Origin: Paludisphaera rhizosphaerae | GTDB lineage: Bacteria > Planctomycetota > Planctomycetia > Isosphaerales > Isosphaeraceae | Direction: 5' to 3' | Length of the DNA: 64,000 nt | Assembly (NCBI RefSeq): GCF_011065895.1 | Contig: NZ_JAALCR010000002.1 | Span: forward strand, 186,001 to 250,000 | Shown here: piece by piece, positions 18,420 through 33,013 of the stretch | Position numbering within the stretch: position 1 is the first letter of the stretch | Layout of the letters: every line of letters begins with the position of its first letter | Notes under the pieces: model-generated | Databases searched by the model: none | Told to the model about the DNA's origin: nothing | What the model saw: only the letters and a program-made list of their open reading frames with translations | Program-made: the position numbers and the translations under genes

Positions 18420-20168
18420 TTGCCCGGCATCCCCGGAGCCTGTTCGCTCATCTCTGGCTCGCCGATTGGCCGGGGCATTTTCGCCCTCGCGCTGGCGTTC
18501 GTCTGCGGCTGCAGGACGATGGACGTCGGCCCGGTGGTGACGACGAAGATGACCGCGCCTGCCGCCACGGCAGAGTCACGCTTCGACTGTGCCTGTCGCG
18601 AACGGCGCGAGGGCGCGAGGCTGGAGCGCCGGGGGATCGACGCCGCCGTCGACCGGTATTACGAGGCCACTCTGCAAGCCGCGTCACTGCTGAGCTCGGA
18701 ACTCTCCGCGACGGGGGGCGACTCCGAGAGCGTCGTCCGCACGCGAGGCCTGTACAACGGCTGCCTCGCCGACTGCTTACGCGCAGGGCAGAAATTCGGA
18801 AGGCTCGATCCCCGATCCACGCTTCTGGTCAACACGTCGCAAGGAACGCGGAGCATCCCCGTACGACATGTGGGATTCGTCTGGAAGCCCGACGATTTCG
18901 TCCGACTGGTCGACGCCGATTCGGTGCCGGCTAACCCGAACGCTCGCGCCTGCCATCACTCACCGGGCCTCGGCGCGAGTGTCTCCTTCCAACGTCCCAA
19001 CCCACGGAGGGAGGCTCAGGACGACTATCTGCCCCGGATCGCCACGTTCAACGCCACGGCCGTTCTTCGACCCGAGACGGGCTCGCCGGACGGGGCCGTC
19101 CTGGAACTGTACGACCCTCTTCGCGTGAAGACGGTCGCGTTTGGATCGTCGCCTGCCGTGCCGCTCGGGGCCGACTACGGATTGGCGGCGGGACTGGCTT
19201 ATGAAATCCAGGAATCGCGCGGGCCGTACGCACTGGCGGGGTTCGCTATGCCGGAGCGGATGCTCTCGCAGGCGGACCTCCGGATGCTGGAGCCCTATCA
19301 GCCGGGGAAAAAGCCATTCGTTCTGGTCCACGGCCTGCTTGCCGACCCGTTCATCTTCACCGATATGATCGTCGCTCTGGAGAAGACGCCGAGATTCCTG
19401 GATGAATATCAGATCTGGGTCTTTCGGTATCCCACTGGCGTGACGTTCGTTCGGACTGCGGCGATTCTTCGCAAGTCGATCGAGGATCTTCCTCGCACCG
19501 TCGATCCCGCCGGGTCCGACCGGGCGCTCTCCGACTGGACGATCCTGGGGTATAGCATGGGCGGGTTGCTGACTCGACTTCAGACCTGCTGGAGCGACGA
19601 CGCCCTGTGGAACTCGATGGCGACTCGTCCGCTGGATTCCCTTTCCATGTCAGACGAGGCGCGACGAACGGCCCGAGATCTCTTCTACTTCGAGCCCTCG
19701 CCGCGTATCCGTCGGGTGATCTACCTGGCGACGCCCCACGACGGCGCCTCCCCGGCGATCGCCTCGGCGAGTTGGCTCACGACGCGGATCGTCCAGCGCC
19801 CGGCCGATACCCGCCGGCTGATTCAGGAAGTGGAAGCCGCCAACCCGGGCGCGCTCCGTCCTGGACTGCGCGACCTCCCCAGCAGCGTCGACGCGCTGGC
19901 GGCGTACAGCCCTCTTTTGCCGGTGGTCCGTCGACTCCGCTCCGATCCCAACGTGACGTTCCACACCATCGCGGGCACCGGCTTTCACCCGGCCGACGAC
20001 GGCCACGGCGACGGCGTCGTCCCGCTGACGAGCGCGCATTTCGACGAAGCCGCGACCGAGCATCACGTCCGCGCCTTTCACAACACGATCTACTACAACT
20101 CGGACACGATTGACGAAGTGCGCCGGATCCTGGGCCTCACATCGCCGGCCTTCGCCTCAGGGCCGTGA
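18420..20168 (+). CDS. Lipoprotein with alpha/beta-hydrolase domain
   Basis: The 582-residue protein starts with a hydrophobic segment (IFALALAFVCGC, probable lipid-bearing Cys at 31), so it is likely membrane-tethered. Residues 45-290 form an unassigned N-terminal region. The alpha/beta-hydrolase part begins at FVLVHGLLADPFIF, with the nucleophile elbow LGYSMGGLL (Ser 379) and YLATPHDGAS. A DDGHGDGVVPLTSAH block supplies a likely catalytic Asp, and HNTIYYN near the end may hold the His. This resembles lipases or esterases acting on envelope or extracellular esters. The TTG start is supported by GAGG six bases upstream. Its last 12 bases overlap the convergent hybrid kinase gene. Confidence 0.85.
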   Translation: MPGIPGACSLISGSPIGRGIFALALAFVCGCRTMDVGPVVTTKMTAPAATAESRFDCACRERREGARLERRGIDAAVDRYYEATLQAASLLSSELSATGGDSESVVRTRGLYNGCLADCLRAGQKFGRLDPRSTLLVNTSQGTRSIPVRHVGFVWKPDDFVRLVDADSVPANPNARACHHSPGLGASVSFQRPNPRREAQDDYLPRIATFNATAVLRPETGSPDGAVLELYDPLRVKTVAFGSSPAVPLGADYGLAAGLAYEIQESRGPYALAGFAMPERMLSQADLRMLEPYQPGKKPFVLVHGLLADPFIFTDMIVALEKTPRFLDEYQIWVFRYPTGVTFVRTAAILRKSIEDLPRTVDPAGSDRALSDWTILGYSMGGLLTRLQTCWSDDALWNSMATRPLDSLSMSDEARRTARDLFYFEPSPRIRRVIYLATPHDGASPAIASASWLTTRIVQRPADTRRLIQEVEAANPGALRPGLRDLPSSVDALAAYSPLLPVVRRLRSDPNVTFHTIAGTGFHPADDGHGDGVVPLTSAHFDEAATEHHVRAFHNTIYYNSDTIDEVRRILGLTSPAFASGP

Positions 20169-22964
20169 TCGGACGGACGCCAATTCCGAGAGCAAGGCGT
20201 CAACGGAAGCTGGCTTGATCATGTGTCGGTCGAACCCCTCCGCCAGCGCCCGCCGACGGTCGTGTTCGCTGCCGTAGCCGGTCAGGGCGATCAGGAAGAG
20301 GCTGGGGCCTTCGGCAAGCTCCCGCAAGCGTCCGGCGAGGGTGTAGCCGTCCATGCCGGGCAGGCCGATGTCGAGGATGGCCGCGTCGGGCTGGAATCGT
20401 GCGGCCACGTCCAAACCGGACGGTCCGTCGAACGCCGTTTCGACTTCGTGCCCAGCGGACTCCAGGAGCTTCGCCAGGGAACAGGCGGCGTCGGTGTTAT
20501 CGTCCACCACGAGGATGCGCCGCTTGACTCCCCTTCCCTCGCCCGTCGGCGGGGGTTGGGACTGACGGACGGCCCGAGCCTGCGCGAGGGGGAGTTGAAC
20601 CGTCATCGTGCTCCCCTGGCCGGGGCCGTCGCTCGTCGCGGTCAGATCGCCGCCGTGAAGTCGGACGAGGGAGCGGGCGATCGTGAGGCCGACTCCCAGC
20701 CCCCCCTGGGAGCGGTCGATCGAGGTCTCGGCCTGCGCGAAAGGATCAAACACACGGGCGAGCACCTCGGGCGTCATCCCCACGCCCTGGTCGTGCACCT
20801 GAACGACCGACTGGTCGCCGTCGGCGACGGCGGAGACCGTGATCGTCCTCCCCTCCTCGCTGTATTTCGCGGCGTTCGCCACCAGGTTCACGAGCACCTG
20901 TTCAATCCGCGCTGGATCGGCGACGACCGTCAGCGGTTCATCGGGAAGGTGGATCTCGATTCGATGTCGTCGGGCGTCGACCGACGGTCGGGCGGTTTCA
21001 ACGGAGCGCTCCACGACCGCGCGCAAATCGATCTCCTCGCGTCGGAGGGTGATTTTCCCCCTTCGGATGCGCGAGACGTCGAGCAGGTCGTCCAGGAGTC
21101 GTGAGAGTTGACGCGTCTGCCGGTCGACGACATCGCCGCACCAGCGGAGGTCGGGGTCGTCCGGGGCTTTCATGCAGAGGATCTGGGCCGCGTTCGAAGC
21201 CGCCGAGATCGGGCTGCGCAGCTCGTGAGCCAGCATCGCGAGGAATTCGTCCTTGCGACGGTCGGCGTCGCGGAGATCTTCCAGGAGTTGCTCGCGTTCG
21301 CGTTCGGCCCGTCGTTGTTCGGTGATATCAAGGAAGACGGCCACGCAGCCGCGCGTCGCTCCCTGTTCGTCGAACAGCGGTTCGACGCTCTCGCGAAGGT
21401 GAATTTCCCGGCCGTCGTCGAAGATGACGTCGACTTCGACATTCCTCAGGCCGATGCCCGTCCGCGCGGACGTTTGCATCGGCAGCTCCTCGGGCGTCAA
21501 CTCGCGACCGTCCTGAAACGGCTTGAAATTGGTCGGCCGTTCCGAATCAGGCGCTGAAAGCGAGACGTTCTCACCCACGGGCGTTCTGAGCATGGCTGAA
21601 AGCGTCGGATTCGCTCGAATCGAGCGACATTGCGGGTCCTCGGCGATTCCCACGCCGATGGGCAGCACATCGAGGACCGTCTGAAGTTCAGCGGCCTGGC
21701 GAACCAGCGAGCGGTTCAGGCGGAGGATTTCCTCCTCGGCTCGTTTTCGTTCGGTGATGTCCTCGGCGACGTAAAAGAAGCGGTCTCGGCCGCCAGCCCC
21801 TGGGCCCATGTGGGTGACGACCACGCCCTGCCAGCGGCGCCCGTTTTCGTCCTCCTGATGGTCCTCGAAGTGGACCGGCCGGCCCAACCTCTGGCTGGCC
21901 CGATAGGCGGAGATCCAGGCCTTCATAGTCGCGGGGGGGACGCCCAGATCCTTGCCGTCCCAGAGTCCGTCCGTGGCCCCGGCCGCCAGTCCGAACGACC
22001 GGCACGTCGCGGGATTGTCGAAGACGTGCAGAACGTCGTCGTCGGACTCGGTCAACTCGACGACGCCCATCGGCAACGGAACGCTGTGGAGGATCTGCCG
22101 GAAGAGCGCCGCGTGTCGCGACCGGACCTCCATCGGCCCTCGCGGAGGGGTCACGTCCTGCCAGACCGACTGCACGGCCGCGAGTCCTCCCGAGCGAATA
22201 CGTCGGGAATGAACGGCGATCTGGCGGAGGTCTCCCGACTTCGTCCTTTGAACGCCCTCGAACCGCCCTCGGCCGTTCGTAAGTACCGCCGACAGCCGGC
22301 GACGAATCGCCTCCGGATCGGTCTCGACGTAGACGTCCCCCAGGGTCAGCGATCCGAACTCGGCGCGGGTGTAGCCCAGGGATTCGCAGGCGGCGTCGTT
22401 GAAGTCCAGAAACCGTTCCGTCTTCGGGTCGATCACCACGACGCCGATCGGAGACTGCGCCAGCAGGGCCCGATACTGAGACGTCTCGTCGGCGGGCGAC
22501 GGCCCAGCGATGGGGTGGATCAAGGACGTCCGCCGGGCCGGGCCGCCGGAATCGACGCCGCTCGACTCGATTTCAACCATCGTCCACTTGCCGTCGGCGC
22601 GAAACAGCCGCTTTCGCATTCGGTACGAAGCCTGCGTTCCGTCGCGCAGGCGAAGGATCTGGGCTCGTTCCGCCTCGGCGTCTTCGGGATGCGTGAAGTC
22701 CTCCACGGCCCTGCCGATCAGGTCGTGCCGGGATCGCCCCAGAATCTCGCAGAGCCGCGCGTTGACGTCGATCCAGCGGCCGTCGGCGTCGACCAGGTCG
22801 AGTCCGACGAGCCGGCTGTTCCATAAAGGCGTCTGACGAACGTCCCCCTCGGCGGCGATCTGCGGCGCGGAAGATTGCATCATGCCCTCGACAGGAAACC
22901 CGGAGACGCGTTCCGGAGCCTCTCCGGGTTTGTCTCGTTCATCGTCTGACGTTGACGCGAACAC
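20157..22964 (-). CDS. Multi-PAS hybrid sensor histidine kinase/response regulator
   Basis: This is a soluble 935-residue protein. Four PAS-like domains appear at about 48-160, 165-280, 285-410 and 430-560; two of them are followed by the linker signatures DITERKRAEEE and DITEQRRAERE. HisKA follows with FLAMLAHELRSPIS (His 580), then an ATPase domain (NLVANAAKYSEEG, DQGVGM, GGLGVGLTIARSLV). A C-terminal receiver has ILVVDDNTDAACSL, Asp 865 in AILDIGLPGMDG and a conserved Lys in HMIKPA. It has no membrane segments, so it senses an internal signal. GTG 22964 immediately follows the TGA of the HINT gene; MMQSS at 22883 is an alternative start with GAGGG just before. The 3' end overlaps the hydrolase gene by 12 bases. 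Confidence 0.94.
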   Translation of the reverse strand: MFASTSDDERDKPGEAPERVSGFPVEGMMQSSAPQIAAEGDVRQTPLWNSRLVGLDLVDADGRWIDVNARLCEILGRSRHDLIGRAVEDFTHPEDAEAERAQILRLRDGTQASYRMRKRLFRADGKWTMVEIESSGVDSGGPARRTSLIHPIAGPSPADETSQYRALLAQSPIGVVVIDPKTERFLDFNDAACESLGYTRAEFGSLTLGDVYVETDPEAIRRRLSAVLTNGRGRFEGVQRTKSGDLRQIAVHSRRIRSGGLAAVQSVWQDVTPPRGPMEVRSRHAALFRQILHSVPLPMGVVELTESDDDVLHVFDNPATCRSFGLAAGATDGLWDGKDLGVPPATMKAWISAYRASQRLGRPVHFEDHQEDENGRRWQGVVVTHMGPGAGGRDRFFYVAEDITERKRAEEEILRLNRSLVRQAAELQTVLDVLPIGVGIAEDPQCRSIRANPTLSAMLRTPVGENVSLSAPDSERPTNFKPFQDGRELTPEELPMQTSARTGIGLRNVEVDVIFDDGREIHLRESVEPLFDEQGATRGCVAVFLDITEQRRAEREREQLLEDLRDADRRKDEFLAMLAHELRSPISAASNAAQILCMKAPDDPDLRWCGDVVDRQTRQLSRLLDDLLDVSRIRRGKITLRREEIDLRAVVERSVETARPSVDARRHRIEIHLPDEPLTVVADPARIEQVLVNLVANAAKYSEEGRTITVSAVADGDQSVVQVHDQGVGMTPEVLARVFDPFAQAETSIDRSQGGLGVGLTIARSLVRLHGGDLTATSDGPGQGSTMTVQLPLAQARAVRQSQPPPTGEGRGVKRRILVVDDNTDAACSLAKLLESAGHEVETAFDGPSGLDVAARFQPDAAILDIGLPGMDGYTLAGRLRELAEGPSLFLIALTGYGSEHDRRRALAEGFDRHMIKPASVDALLSELASVRSRP

Positions 22965-24974
22965 TCAGCGACGAGCCGTCGTCGCGACCGTCGTGGTCGC
23001 GGCGGCGTCGAAAGGCCTCGGTGGTTCGCGGACGATGCTGTAGTCGTGAACCAGCAGCCCGGAGCGGCCGACGAAGAAATCGAGATCGTCGGTCACTTCC
23101 AGATTAAACACCTCAGCGGTCGGACCGGGCTCGACGGCGACGACGACGCGCGTCGCTCCGACCGCTCGCACGGTATCGCCGACCTTCAGATCGCGAGCCA
23201 TCGTCCAGCCGATTCCCGGCTTCCAGAAACGGTGAATCCCCGTCGCTCCGATCGTTTCACCGTCGAAATTGAGCTTGAGAGTCGCCGTCGGCGGGTTGCG
23301 ATGGATGGCGACGACGGTCTTGTAGGAGATCGCGCCAGTCTCCACATTTTGAGACAGCACCAGGTCTCCCACCGCGACCTCCTCAATCGCGCTCAGGCCG
23401 GTCAGCGTGCGGACGGGCGTTCCTGCGACGAAGCAGGAGTGGTGGGCTCTCACGGTATACGGCGATTGGATCTCCTGGATCTGCTGGTACGTCGGCTTCG
23501 ACTCAGAACTCGGCGACTCGTAGGCATAGCCGAGATGGTCGTTCCACCAGCCTTTCCAGGCATCCTGGTCCTCGCCGAGGTCCTTTCCCGTTACAGGTCT
23601 GGCGACGGCCAGAGCCCGATCGTTGACGGCGCGGATCTGGGAGTTCATCGATTCGATGGTCGCCACGTCGTTGCGAATGGACTGCTGAGCTTCCCGGATG
23701 CGGTTCTGCTCGTCCTCGAGCACTCTCGCGATCTCGCGGTCGCGGCGGACGGCCTCGAGATAGAAACCCGCGGGTAACGTCACGTTCCGAGACGCAGCGG
23801 CTGCTGCTCCACTCAGCAAAGGCGAAGCGGGAGTTCCAACGACCGCCGTCGGCGAGGCGACCCGCAGCCAGTCCTGGGCGATGGCCGGGAGCGGCAATTC
23901 GGTCTGAAGCGGCATTCCGTCGGCAAAGATCCTTCGAGGAATCTGCGCGGGATCGGTCGCCCATATCCGGTATTTCTTGTCGATGTTGTACCGCTCGCCT
24001 TCCACCAACAGGGCGCCCTGATCGCCTCCCAGCCCCACAGGTTTGGCGGTATATCGGAAAGGTTTGTGGATCAACTCCAGAACCGGATCAAGGAAGTCTC
24101 CGGGGTCGCGACGCATCAACATCCCGATGGAAAGACCGCGCACCTCCGCGAATGGGCTGAACACCGCAAGCTCTGCCAGCGCGAGCGACGCGGATCGGCC
24201 GTCGATTCGTGCGAACGATTCGGCCGCTCGGCTCTGAAGGCGGGGATCGTCGCGAACGAAGGCGTTCCAGATCGGCGTCACGGCGAAGGGGTCCGTGATC
24301 GCGTCGAGCTTCTCCTGGGCCTTGAGCCGCGTTTTCTCGTCCTTACCGGTGTAGTCGCTGCGTGCCTTGTCCAGGACGGGCTTCCAGCGGAGATCGGCGA
24401 GTCGCTGGGCTTCGGCTCGGGTCTTCTCGGCGACGGCTTCCTCGGGGAGCATCCACCGACCACCCGTTTTGCGATAACCAAGCTTCTTCCGGAGCGACTC
24501 TCGGTTCGGATCGAGCCGGAGGACGGCTTTGTAATGCGCGAGGGCTTGCTCCGGAAGCCCGTGTTGCTCGCACCAGCGAGCCAACTCACGCTGAGGTTCC
24601 GCCCGGTCGGCGGTCGCGGCTCGCTTCGCCAGATACTGCTTCATCGTCTCCTGGGCGATCGGGTCGTTGTCCAGCGTGGCGCGGGCCTCTTCCGGCCGCA
24701 CCCAGCGGCCGTCGTGGCTGACCATCCCGAGAAGCCCGCGCGCTGCCGCGTTGTCGGGCGCGATCAGGACGGCTCGGGTGAGATGTTTGAGACGCTCGGC
24801 CGCCATGCCGCGACTCTCGCACCAGAGCGCCAACGCGACCTGGCCGTCGGCGTCGCGCCCGGCTTCCGCCGCGATGGTTTGGTACTCCCTCAGATCCTCG
24901 TCCGTCGGTCGCGAGGTCGGGGATTGCTGCAGGGTTATCGACGCGGAAAGGAAGAGCGCGACGATCATCTTCAC
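22965..24974 (-). CDS. Exported repeat protein with C-terminal HINT (intein-like) domain
   Basis: This 669-residue protein has a signal peptide (MIVALFLSASITLQQS). Residues 25-185 form tetratricopeptide-like units (HLTRAVLIAPDNAAARGLLG, LAHYKAVLRLDPNRESLRKKLG), each followed by a GRW(V/M) linker. HEAT-like helices follow, then a helical segment at about 415-465. A HINT domain spans about 513-644. It starts with Cys 514 in SCFVAGTPV, continues with IEEVAVGDLVLS and GIHRFWKPGIGW, and ends in GLLVHD (His 643, Asp 644). HINT domains self-cleave and in polymorphic toxins normally end HN before a toxin. Here the ending is HD and only 25 residues follow. The stop TGA touches the GTG of the hybrid kinase gene. 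Confidence 0.85.
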   Translation of the reverse strand: MKMIVALFLSASITLQQSPTSRPTDEDLREYQTIAAEAGRDADGQVALALWCESRGMAAERLKHLTRAVLIAPDNAAARGLLGMVSHDGRWVRPEEARATLDNDPIAQETMKQYLAKRAATADRAEPQRELARWCEQHGLPEQALAHYKAVLRLDPNRESLRKKLGYRKTGGRWMLPEEAVAEKTRAEAQRLADLRWKPVLDKARSDYTGKDEKTRLKAQEKLDAITDPFAVTPIWNAFVRDDPRLQSRAAESFARIDGRSASLALAELAVFSPFAEVRGLSIGMLMRRDPGDFLDPVLELIHKPFRYTAKPVGLGGDQGALLVEGERYNIDKKYRIWATDPAQIPRRIFADGMPLQTELPLPAIAQDWLRVASPTAVVGTPASPLLSGAAAAASRNVTLPAGFYLEAVRRDREIARVLEDEQNRIREAQQSIRNDVATIESMNSQIRAVNDRALAVARPVTGKDLGEDQDAWKGWWNDHLGYAYESPSSESKPTYQQIQEIQSPYTVRAHHSCFVAGTPVRTLTGLSAIEEVAVGDLVLSQNVETGAISYKTVVAIHRNPPTATLKLNFDGETIGATGIHRFWKPGIGWTMARDLKVGDTVRAVGATRVVVAVEPGPTAEVFNLEVTDDLDFFVGRSGLLVHDYSIVREPPRPFDAAATTTVATTARR

Positions 24975-29605: not shown

Positions 29606-32600
29606 ATGTCCATGACCCCTCCGCCGGAAGATCGCGACGACTCGGATGTGACGCCGACCCTACCGGACGGCGTGCCGTACCACGTCCTGGACAATCTGGA
29701 TGAACACGAAGTCGCCGAGATGCGAGCCGCCTTTGAGCGGCTCGAGGCGGAGCCGAACCGCACCTCGGATGGAACGCCCACGCGCCTGGAAGCACTTGGG
29801 CCGTTTCGCGATCTCGTGGAGATCGGGCGTGGAGGGATGGGCCGAGTCTATCGGACGCTCGACCCGGCGACCGGCGAGGACGTCGCGGTCAAGGTCACGG
29901 CCCCCGCGCTCAAGCACGACCTCAGCGTGCGTCGTCGCTTCCTTCGCGAGGCCAGGGCCGCTCAGATCCTCCAACACCCGGGAATCGTCCCGTGCCGGGG
30001 TTGGGGGGAAGACGACGGCGGATGCTACATCGTCAGCGACCTCTGCGACGGTCCCAATCTGGAAACCTGGCTGAAGGCGAGGAAAGGCTCGGTGCCGGCG
30101 CGCGAGGCCGCTCGGATCGTCCGCGTTCTGGCCGAGGCGATCGCGCACGCCCACTCGCAGGGGGTCCTGCACCGCGACCTCAAGCCATCGAATGTTCTCC
30201 TGCCTGGGGCGACGGTGAACTCCGACGCTGAGGACCTCTCTCCTCGGCTCACCGACTTCGGACTGGCTCGAGCCATCGATCAGGACGCCCCGGCCGGCGA
30301 CACGCCCACCGCGACGGGACTGATTCTCGGTTCCCCCCCCTACATGGCTCCGGAGCAAGCAGCCGGTGGAGGCCATGAAGTCGATCGGCGGACGGACGTC
30401 TACGGCCTTGGGGCCATGCTCTACGCTGTGCTGACGGGTCGGCCTCCATTCCGTGGCGAGACCCCCCGAGAAACCATAAAGATGGTCATCAACGATGACC
30501 CCATCCCCGTGAGAGTCCTTCGCCCAGGCGTCCCCAAAGCCCTGGAGACGATCGCGCTGACGTGTCTGGAGAAGCAGAAGGATAATCGATATCGGACGGC
30601 CGAAGACCTGTGCGAAGATCTCGATGCGTTCCTCGAAAATCGACTGATCAAGGCGCCGGGGATCAGCCGCGCCGAGAGGTTTCGCCGATGGTCGCGACGT
30701 CGACCCAAGGCGACCACCGCGCTGGTCGCTGGAGTAGCGGCCCTGGCGGTTCTCATCGCGGCGATCGCGGCGTGGACCTACGAACTGACGAATCACGTCA
30801 AAGAGCTTCGTCGCCAGCGCGACGTGATCGCACGTCTGGGATACGATGCGACGATCCAATCGGCCGGACGCGATCTTGAGGACGGCCGCCTCGGGGTCGC
30901 TCAGTCCAAACTCGCCGAGCTCGTCCCCGGCCCGGGAATGCCCGACTTCCGTGAGTTCGCCTGGAGCTTACTTTGGAATTCGGCCTGCCGCGAAGCCAGA
31001 ATGCTGTCGGATCAACTACTCTCACTTGTTCAGCCATCGATTAGCCCCAGCGGCCGCTTCCTTGCGACGGGGAGCGACAACTCGACGCTCAAGGTCTATG
31101 ACCTGGATCAAGATCGGGTCCTCTGGTCGGTCGATACGCCGAATCGAGTCCTCGCGCTCCGCCCCACATTCTCGCCCGACGATCAGTTGATGGCCGTCTG
31201 TTTCTCGGCGCCCGAGGGAGAAGCGTCGTCGCGGAGTTTCTGCGTCGAGGTGCGAAACCTCCGCACGGGCGAGGTCGTCGCGACCCGTGCCCCGTTCCTT
31301 CCAGGAAAGCCGATTTGGCAAATCAGTTTGCTCGACGACGGGCGATTGATCACGACGATCCTCGACGTTGATGAATCCCGTCCGGGGACGGTCGACGTCC
31401 TCATCTGGTCGATTCGCAATCGCCTTCTCGAAGATCACGGGGCGTTGCGACTTGTCGGCTGCCGAGCCATTTCCCCCGATGGTCGACGGTTCGCGGCGGA
31501 GAAGGACGAGGGCTTCCTGGCTGTCTACGACCTGGATCGTGAATGGCTCCCCGGGCATGAGCGGATTCCCGTTGAGGACGTCTGTCGCGTGGTCTTTGAT
31601 GAGCAGGCGAGACGCATGGCGGTCGGCTTTGAGAGGGCCGGCGAGGTTCGGGTCGTCGATACGGAGACCGGCCTACTCCTCATGCGGGCCGCAGGGTTTT
31701 CGACCATGATCGATCAAATCGCCTTCCACCCTTCCGCCAACGCTCTGCTGGTCCACGAGAAGAACCAGGAGGTTCGCCTGGTCGAGCCGTCTCGGGGAGT
31801 CGACCTCCAGGTCTTCGGCCCGACCAACTCGCCGGGCGTCGGCACGATCCGAATGCTTTTCTCCCAGGATGGCTCGGTCTTTTTCGTCCATCGCTCAGAG
31901 TACATGGCAGCCGACCATCTTGAGGTCCACTCGTCCGCGGACGGCGTCAAATTTGGGGAGTCGCCCGGGCGGGTCAAGGCGCAGATGGGGGATTGGTTCC
32001 TCCGAAGCGGAGGGAGGCAGGAGTTGGTCTATGGACTGGGAAGACGCGTCTGGAGTTGGGACTGGCGCGCATCGATCACGTCGCATGGCGATCAGGCTGT
32101 CACAGCCCACCGCGACGAGGGATGGGCGATCGACTACAGCCCAAACGGTCAGTTTATCGCGACGGGGGCGGACGACGACGGCGATCCCGTAACGATCAAG
32201 ATTTGGGAAGCCCTATCGAAGAAGGAGGTCCGTTCCTGGAGAGAAGCCAACGGCACGGCCGCGGATCTGGCGTTCTCGCCAGATGGGAAGCTGATCGCCA
32301 CTGTCCACCTGTCCAGGGACAGAGCCGTGCGGGTGCGTGAGACAGCTGGAGGCGATCCGTTCGTCTTCGAGATGCCAGAGGAGCAGTGGGCTCGGTCTGT
32401 GGAATTCGACCCGACAGGCGAGTTGCTCCTAGCCGGTGGAGACAAGGGCGACCTGATGGCCTGGAATGTCCGCTCGCGCAAGTTGGTCTGGTCGAACCGT
32501 CTCTCCAGTCCCAGGGCGCTCGCGCTGAAGCAACTCCGGATTCACGACCTTGAGGTCGACGCAGGGCGTGCCAGGTTGGCTTCCGCTTCCGACGACGGCT

Positions 32601-33013
32601 CTGTACGACTTCATGAACTGGCTACCGGTGAGGTGGTCGCCCACTACCAGGCGCCGGCCGCGGTCTACTCCCTCGCCTTGAGCCCCGACGGTCGCGTGCT
32701 GGCCGCCGCCGACCGCGAGGGGGCGATTCACATACTCGACGCCGACACCTGCCGGCTTAAGCGAATTCTATACGGCGACGAAAGTGACCTTCGGGCGATC
32801 GCCTTCAGTCCGGACAGCCGCACGCTGGCGGCTGGCGGACTCGATCGGGTTGTTCACCTTTGGGATCCGGAGACCTCGCAGGAGCTCTTAAGCCTGCGCG
32901 GCCCGCAGGCTCAGATCAACGGTCTCGCTTTCAGCCCGGACGGCGAAACGCTCGCCGCCATCGACCATTCGGGGATGCTTTGGTTCTGGAGAGGGTCGCG
33001 TCGTGCTCCGTGA
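29606..33013 (+). CDS. Transmembrane Ser/Thr protein kinase with WD40-like repeats
   Basis: The 1135-residue protein begins with a short N-terminal region that has two acidic helices. A Hanks-type kinase domain follows at about 69-345: glycine loop IGRGGMGRVY, Lys 96 in VAVKV, HRDLKPSN with Asp 191, DFGL with Asp 217, and PYMAPEQ. A membrane segment lies at about 371-391 (ALVAGVAALAVLIAAIAAW). Residues from about 460 to the end form WD40-like blades, for example SGRFLATGSDNSTLKVYD, LAFSPDGKLIATVH, IAFSPDSRTLAAGGLDRVVHLWD and LAFSPDGETLAAI. The kinase faces the cytoplasm and the propeller the other side. Planctomycetes often pair such kinases with ECF sigma factors; none is adjacent here. Confidence 0.95.
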   Translation: MSMTPPPEDRDDSDVTPTLPDGVPYHVLDNLDEHEVAEMRAAFERLEAEPNRTSDGTPTRLEALGPFRDLVEIGRGGMGRVYRTLDPATGEDVAVKVTAPALKHDLSVRRRFLREARAAQILQHPGIVPCRGWGEDDGGCYIVSDLCDGPNLETWLKARKGSVPAREAARIVRVLAEAIAHAHSQGVLHRDLKPSNVLLPGATVNSDAEDLSPRLTDFGLARAIDQDAPAGDTPTATGLILGSPPYMAPEQAAGGGHEVDRRTDVYGLGAMLYAVLTGRPPFRGETPRETIKMVINDDPIPVRVLRPGVPKALETIALTCLEKQKDNRYRTAEDLCEDLDAFLENRLIKAPGISRAERFRRWSRRRPKATTALVAGVAALAVLIAAIAAWTYELTNHVKELRRQRDVIARLGYDATIQSAGRDLEDGRLGVAQSKLAELVPGPGMPDFREFAWSLLWNSACREARMLSDQLLSLVQPSISPSGRFLATGSDNSTLKVYDLDQDRVLWSVDTPNRVLALRPTFSPDDQLMAVCFSAPEGEASSRSFCVEVRNLRTGEVVATRAPFLPGKPIWQISLLDDGRLITTILDVDESRPGTVDVLIWSIRNRLLEDHGALRLVGCRAISPDGRRFAAEKDEGFLAVYDLDREWLPGHERIPVEDVCRVVFDEQARRMAVGFERAGEVRVVDTETGLLLMRAAGFSTMIDQIAFHPSANALLVHEKNQEVRLVEPSRGVDLQVFGPTNSPGVGTIRMLFSQDGSVFFVHRSEYMAADHLEVHSSADGVKFGESPGRVKAQMGDWFLRSGGRQELVYGLGRRVWSWDWRASITSHGDQAVTAHRDEGWAIDYSPNGQFIATGADDDGDPVTIKIWEALSKKEVRSWREANGTAADLAFSPDGKLIATVHLSRDRAVRVRETAGGDPFVFEMPEEQWARSVEFDPTGELLLAGGDKGDLMAWNVRSRKLVWSNRLSSPRALALKQLRIHDLEVDAGRARLASASDDGSVRLHELATGEVVAHYQAPAAVYSLALSPDGRVLAAADREGAIHILDADTCRLKRILYGDESDLRAIAFSPDSRTLAAGGLDRVVHLWDPETSQELLSLRGPQAQINGLAFSPDGETLAAIDHSGMLWFWRGSRRAP

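Follow-up and report, generated by a model that had tools for sequence, protein, structure and literature searches.

What does a Hint domain do at the C-terminus of a repeat protein when it ends in His-Asp instead of the usual His-Asn and carries no toxin behind it? The question was raised by one gene in a window of 64,000 nucleotides (C2:186001-250000) of the Paludisphaera rhizosphaerae genome, which comprises 8.05 Mb in 110 contigs.

The Hint gene and its product

The residues on which the question turns could be read directly in the ORF: Cys514 is intact, His643-Asp644 is the terminal pair, and exactly 25 residues follow, with no toxin domain among them. Several further claims of the original prediction were borne out. 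A HINT domain at the end of a repeat protein was recovered with PT-HINT (PF07591), the best Pfam family for this protein, which matches residues 521-644 (E=1.6e-16) with 61.3 bits against a curated cut-off of 27.7 and places the domain in the HINT superfamily by profile. The Pfam family 'Hint' (PF01079) scores 15.2 bits, under its cut-off of 29.7, and a scan of the protein against NCBIfam gave no match above any cut-off. Near the N-terminus TPR_14 is above its Pfam cut-off, and the HEAT-like stretch is visible as weak alphaRep matches (best E=2.4e-4) and predicted helices. The repeat protein is probably exported, as had been proposed: of 108 members of the family described below, 102 could be scored, and 98 of these have a hydrophobic 12-mer close to the N-terminus, compared with 4% of 918 control windows, counted by a 12-mer scan rather than a dedicated signal-peptide predictor, with the start codons of the relatives not fixed.

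That the Hint identity is not a chance match is supported by the predicted fold. The Hint of the full-protein model superimposes on the bacterial intein-like (BIL) domain 2lwy with Z 19.7 and 1.3 Å over 134 residues. By Foldseek and VIA-align, inteins and BILs rank first (2lwy Z 21.6, 6frg Z 21.4) and Hedgehog matches are lower (6tyy Z 18.2; 1at0 Z 17.9 over 129 residues). With Z values to 2lwy of 19.7 for the full-protein model and 21.6 for the Hint-only model, the models have the Hint fold of the HINT superfamily.

The hybrid kinase gene next to the Hint gene keeps its order and strand in the two genomes of the same genus that have a full-length match at 55-58% identity (L049/L182 of Paludisphaera soli, and L201). 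The adjacency may reflect an operon or no more than synteny; further neighbours are conserved too. Clustering of the ORFs flanking the family loci named no conserved partner gene, and the larger groups, taken as groups and not annotated singly, resemble antisense shadows of the family itself. Elsewhere in the window, at 29606-33013, a serine/threonine protein kinase is fused to WD40 repeats.

Table 1. Features of the Hint gene and its neighbour, in window coordinates
Feature	Position	Strand	Basis
Whole gene, TPR/HEAT repeats and C-terminal Hint, probably exported	22965..24974	-	ORF, 669 aa, GTG start
Signal-peptide-like hydrophobic start, residues 1-17	24924..24974	-	Sequence; hydrophobic N-terminus in 98/102 scored members
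TPR and HEAT-like helical repeats, residues 25-300	24075..24902	-	TPR_14, weak alphaRep matches, predicted helices
Long predicted helix, probable coiled coil, residues 402-462	23589..23771	-	Structure model
Low-confidence linker upstream of Hint, residues 484-513	23436..23525	-	pLDDT block means 63-65, Hint-only model
Hint domain, residues 514-644	23043..23435	-	Pfam, sequence and fold matches
Cys514, Hint residue 1, expected thioester-forming nucleophile	23433..23435	-	Cys 107/111
T578-x-x-H581, block B TxxH motif	23232..23243	-	His 106/111; Thr/Ser 108/111
Asn624, block F position (VFNL)	23103..23105	-	110/111, one gap
His643-Asp644, block G terminal pair	23043..23048	-	Asp 109/109 readable, His 101/109 readable
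C-terminal tail, residues 645-669	22968..23042	-	pLDDT block means
Phe655-Asp656 tail motif, 11 residues past Asp644	23007..23012	-	[FY]D 109/109 readable
PAS/histidine kinase/response regulator hybrid, adjacent downstream gene	20157..22964	-	ORF begins directly after the stop of the Hint gene

A planctomycete family of TPR-Hint proteins

As judged from its relatives, the His-Asp end without a toxin is the rule of a planctomycete family of TPR/HEAT repeat proteins with a C-terminal Hint (the TPR-Hint family) and not the oddity of one protein. The genome of the window holds five further repeat-plus-Hint copies: contig C47 carries four of them in tandem, and the fifth lies on C51 next to a piece truncated at the contig end. 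Among 45 genomes of Isosphaeraceae, the window protein is matched at E<=1e-5 in 40 and the Hint profile at E<=1e-10 in 36, with at most 11 profile matches per genome when fragments and non-family Hints are counted; ORFs with both the repeat N-terminus and the Hint number 1 to 8 per genome in 34 of the 45. Named relatives belong to Paludisphaera, Singulisphaera, Aquisphaera and Tautonia, and distant relatives were seen in Bythopirellula and in a Planctomicrobium MAG. A draw of 294 genomes from the phylum gave 32 with a match at E<=1e-15, the own genome included. The family shows birth and decay.

The main counts below come from members found by profile in the 45 genomes and then read with the profile. 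This gave 139 Hint rows; the repeat N-terminus is present in 111 of them and missing from 28, the latter made up of 16 rows from 12 non-family ORFs and 12 rows from family-like fragments or contig-edge pieces. For the tree, the Ka/Ks values and the spacing, L202, L218 and L224 were dropped because their ORFs run off the contig end, leaving 108 members. An earlier set of loci had been found by a pattern containing HRFW, which inflated the conservation of His581 and Arg582, and a table of 101 ORFs into which such loci are mixed was left out of the main counts. Since the profiles were built from the family itself, strongly degenerate copies could be missed.

Fragmentary copies occur at L165, L162 (an ORF of 83 aa), L154 and L239, the last of which goes out of frame past the Hint; the family-like ORF of 218 aa at L165 has the Asp and ends 7 residues later, without [FY]D. 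In the tandem pair L017 of the own genome (C47:22001-37144), Ks is 0.13 in the Hint, 0.45 in the N-terminus and 2.31 in the middle, and the combination of close ends with a diverged middle points to gene conversion or domain exchange. The same pattern is seen at L187 at the protein level.

The terminal Asp and the tail motif are invariant

The original prediction proposed an alignment of relatives to see whether the Asp is conserved. It is: every one of the 109 readable members has Asp at position 644 (2 of the 111 were unreadable there), and we can rule out that Asp644 is a one-off mutation. The tail motif [FY]D is likewise present in 109 of 109 readable members, again with 2 of 111 unreadable. 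Both the family-wide Asp and this equally invariant motif lay beyond the reading of a single sequence. [FY]D follows Asp644 at a distance of 11 residues in 104 of 108 members and of 12 in 4 of 108, and the tails of these 108 stop-terminated members are 14-50 residues long, with one of 86. Among the 12 fragment and contig-edge rows, Asp is kept in 11 and [FY]D in 10. Counted as minimum parsimony changes on a single FastTree tree of the 108 members, midpoint-rooted and without support tests, Asp644 and Asp656 changed 0 times, Phe655 2, Cys514 3, His581 4 and His643 6 times, against a median of 26 changes per column (158 columns; total tree length 53.8).

In inteins the penultimate His assists the C-terminal reaction. 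The corresponding position 643 is His in 101 of the 111 members, Tyr in 3, Arg in 2, Asn in 2 and Gly in 1, with 2 unreadable. It is altered in 8 members, at least 6 times on the tree, and Cys is kept in all 8. A His retained in 101 of 109 readable members could serve a C-terminal cut.

The residues on either side of the Hint are less constrained. The -1 residue is Ser in 72 of 111 members and changed 27 times on the tree. Position 645 is Asn in 85 of the 109 readable members, and one could imagine that the cyclising Asn has moved by one, giving a His-Asp-Asn end in which Asn645 takes the role. We consider this barely credible: eight other residues (Phe, Asp, Tyr, Ser, Ala, His, Val, Gly) also occur at the position, which changed 18 times on the tree of 108, and the window protein itself has Tyr645.

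Two candidate salt bridges were rejected. Arg582 is Arg in 109 of 111 members and Arg603 in 110 of 111, but neither pairing is strict: the loci L122 and L123 have the Asp without Arg582, which argues against a bridge from Arg582 to Asp644, and L101 and L102 have Arg603 without [FY]D, which argues against one from Arg603 to the tail motif.

Hint domains outside the family

A survey of what follows the domain elsewhere, also proposed in the original prediction, found the [FY]D tail in the family and mostly longer C-termini behind Hints ending in His-Asn (HN). In the 45 genomes, each of the 12 Hint ORFs outside the family ends in His-Asn, with 87-143 residues behind; the pair was located by motif, unaligned by profile, in four of them, and the repeat N-terminus was judged absent within the fetched stretch, off whose 5' side five of the ORFs run. 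In the own genome, HN Hints are found in a giant of 3518 residues and in an ORF of 399 residues. L120, on contig C8 of the same genome (5060-6244), is a toxin-type Hint protein with a CHCGSGRKYKKCC start, which we take to be SEC-C-like, an LVHN end and 143 residues behind.

In the phylum draw, HN is also the end of all 25 loci from L126 to L150, and 21 of them have 79-258 residues behind. Short tails follow the pair in L144 (5 residues), L149 (9) and L146 (23), and in L130 the contig ends 4 residues after it. The simple rule that Asn occurs only with cargo holds for the 12 non-family ORFs but is broken by L144, L146 and L149. HN Hints mostly carry long C-termini, with these three exceptions. 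The terminal Asp is thus a mark of the TPR-Hint family, and Asn comes with C-terminal cargo in most cases but not in all.

Other Hints depart from Asn in their own ways. Four TPR-Hints outside the family, L122-L125 of the phylum draw, share the repeat N-terminus, as judged within the fetched stretches, and have PG[VLY] in place of the family's P[FY]D. L122 and L123 have the terminal Asp (HD); L124 and L125, from one genus of the same planctomycete class, have a terminal Gly (HG) and PGV in the tail. Glycine cannot cyclise. The HD end is combined with PG[VLM] in L095, L101-L103 and L108, loci that were found by the HRFW pattern. A further non-Asn type is seen in Deferrisomatales and Deltaproteobacteria MAGs, where L109 (8494-8892) and L110 (10001-10402) encode large proteins whose C-terminal HRFW Hint has His-Gln where others have His-Asn and is followed by a 43-residue tail that is nearly identical in the two.

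It could be argued that the window protein is a polymorphic toxin that lost its toxin, since its best Pfam family is PT-HINT and the same genome also encodes Hint proteins of the toxin type. One survey of polymorphic toxins, as far as its text was available, lists HINT together with TPR repeats for Sec-exported toxins (PMC3482391), so the combination of repeats with a Hint is in itself not new. We nevertheless find this origin very improbable, as across 108 members the short tail has kept both its sequence and its spacing, the opposite of decay. In the available text of the survey, planctomycetes come up 50 times, HINT 64 times and Isosphaera or Singulisphaera never, and related proteins may be treated there under different names. 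In the published work that we covered on Hint and intein-like domains in planctomycetes, mostly outside subscription journals, the TPR-Hint architecture was not found.

The tail is predicted to be part of the Hint domain

The full-protein model has a mean pLDDT of 87, with a confident Hint and with residues 504-511 disordered. Its block means along the tail are 89 (641-650) and 82 (651-660), falling below 50 from residue 662. When the Hint and tail were modelled alone, the mean pLDDT was 89, with averages of 90 for residues 644-653 and 75 for 654-663; the confidence in the tail is therefore independent of the repeats. In a Hint-only model the upstream linker averages 63-65. The tail is predicted as coil, with no helix in either model. 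Judged from the pLDDT values, the tail is predicted to be part of the Hint.

This prediction bears on whether Asp644 may cyclise as Asn does, in which case there would be a cut at either end of the Hint, setting free the repeat part and a peptide of 25 residues starting at 645. Asp alone leaves a C-terminal cut possible, because inteins ending in Asp, Gln or Glu are described, in the part of the source available, as using the usual mechanism (PMC4031507), and such a cut would agree with an invariant Asp644 and a His643 that is mostly kept. We regard cleavage by Asp as unlikely all the same. Asp644 stays where the Cys and the TxxH His are lost, His643 drifts, two related TPR-Hints of one genus have Gly at the site, and the tail, predicted to belong to the Hint, stands at a fixed distance from Asp644. 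The cut at 644 that had been envisaged originally is less likely than one on the N-terminal side.

Cys and His are lost together

The catalytic positions are well conserved, though less strictly than Asp644. The Cys514 position is Cys in 107 of the 111 members and otherwise Tyr (2), Ser (1) or Arg (1), while the His of TxxH is His in 106 and otherwise Thr (2), Gln (1), Val (1) or Glu (1). The first position of TxxH is Thr or Ser in 108 of 111, and the block F Asn is found in 110 of 111, with a gap in 1. With fragments included, 111 copies have both Cys and His, 5 have neither and 1 has Cys alone. Such joint loss is expected of residues that work as one catalytic unit. Of the copies without Cys, four are full-length and one is a fragment. 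They come from five genomes of three genera (three species of g14, and one copy each in G009 and G038), and all five retain HD and FD, which argues that the Asp and the tail serve more than catalysis alone.

The Hint as a whole is under constraint. It is the most conserved of the regions compared with the window copy, with a mean identity (n=107) of 0.51, compared with 0.40 for the N-terminus, 0.39 for tail residues 645-657 and 0.26 for the middle. Its Ka is below Ks in 26 of the 26 pairs listed, with a ratio of at most about 0.5, although the pairs are not independent. In the Cys-less pair L236/L234, the Hint has Ka 0.21 and Ks 0.93, a sign of purifying selection that speaks for the fold having a structural use in these copies. 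Since Cys-less members persist, with one pair under purifying selection, the Hint fold appears useful even without cleavage.

Would the Hint then be silent in the window protein, a catalytically inactive fold that acts as a C-terminal binding or capping domain, with Cys and His retained for structure or for a metal site? The persistence of the domain, of Asp644 and of the tail motif in the Cys-less copies would fit such a role, as would the selection on L236/L234 and the better conservation of Asp644 and of the tail Asp than of Cys. The drift of Cys that the original prediction had named as a sign against cleavage did occur, but in 4 of 111 members and one fragment, always with loss of the His. 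Cys is never lost without the His (5 of 5), and the great majority of members have both; because the domain persists without them, their positions would matter for chemistry rather than folding. We therefore hold the silent fold to be the weightiest of the alternatives, and still an unlikely one.

Proposed mechanism

The reading that we prefer, and consider reasonably probable, is that the family has kept the N-terminal thioester chemistry of Hint domains and abandoned C-terminal cleavage, with the tail as a fixed extension of the Hint. Cys514, aided by His581 of the TxxH motif, would attack the Ser513-Cys514 bond and form a thioester. The thioester would be hydrolysed or taken by an outside nucleophile, so that the exported repeat part (about residues 18-513) is freed or transferred. 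The C-terminal side would remain uncut, the position of Asn in other Hints being fixed as Asp, and Asp644 together with the Phe655-Asp656 tail would form a fixed structural extension in the place of the adduct recognition region of Hedgehog. With the C-terminal cutting residue exchanged across the family and a short conserved tail retained, the protein probably cuts on its N-terminal side only.

This proposal rests on how the residues are conserved across the family, on Cys and His being lost together, on the fixed distance at which the tail motif stands and on the fold of the models, and from these we infer the thioester, the cut, the role of the Asp and the tail, and the fate of the released part. 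The original prediction had left it between a protein that cleaves and attaches itself and an inactive one. The conservation of Cys (107/111) and His (106/111) favours retained N-terminal chemistry.

A bolder and rather doubtful extension is that the Cys514 thioester passes the exported repeat protein to a putative acceptor on the cell surface or matrix, with the tail positioning the acceptor, as a bacterial counterpart of Hedgehog processing. The question would then be which molecule takes over an exported bacterial protein from its thioester. The natural Cys-less members would be built-in controls.

Comparison with known systems

By sequence, the closest solved relative is the Clostridium thermocellum BIL domain 2lwy, with 35% identity and the LVH of block G in common; it ends in His-Asn, whereas the window protein ends in Asp followed by a conserved tail. 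Neither BIL type fits. Type A has a terminal His-Asn, for which His-Asp is found here, and type B has no block G similarity, while the LVH-D of the window protein aligns with the LVH-N of 2lwy (types as given in the available part of PMC4031507).

Inteins with a C-terminal Asp share the Asp at the terminal position of block G (PMC4031507, available in part). They join a second protein part, which the window protein does not have. Inteins have two exteins with Cys, Ser or Thr at +1; here the +1 residue is Tyr, and it varies in the family, where it is mostly Asn. The PT-HINT polymorphic toxins give the best Pfam match and carry a toxin domain after the Hint, where the window protein has 25 residues only; the non-family Hints combine HN with 87-143 residues behind, and the TPR-Hint family has a short tail behind HD.

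BIL2 of the Tetrahymena BUBL1 locus (6y75, 6tmm) has the Hint fold in common (6y75 Z 20.6) and is a precedent for a Hint that conjugates an upstream domain to an amine: it is described, in the portion of the source at hand, as conjugating a ubiquitin-like domain via an isopeptide bond (PMC8616854). The titles of the BIL2 entries (C1A-N143A) imply a terminal Asn, and BIL2 is flanked by ubiquitin-like domains, unlike the window Hint. By analogy with the zinc site of BIL2, the conserved His and acidic residues may bind metal.

The arrangement of the window protein resembles that of Hedgehog and Hog proteins (1at0, 6tyy): an exported N-terminal part, a C-terminal Hint with Cys as its first residue and a TxxH motif, and a further C-terminal region. 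Hog proteins are described as a Hint with a sterol or adduct recognition region (PMC2362128, available in part). They carry out the N-terminal reaction only, as the window protein would by our reading of its sequence. The likeness to Hog domains was compared at the level of the fold only, with 20% identity between 1at0 and the window Hint. Hedgehog joins a sterol, and no link to sterol is known for the window protein. According to the available text of PMC7242414, the recognition region of Hedgehog is a helix-loop-helix that is needed for cholesterol transfer and not for thioester cleavage by DTT; at its place the window protein has a conserved tail of ~25 residues with the [FY]D motif, predicted as coil and with no predicted helix. 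Bacterial Hints have so far mostly been treated as inteins or toxin releasers. If the proposal is true, the Hedgehog arrangement exists in bacteria too, in a large family that keeps the N-terminal reaction and a fixed tail.
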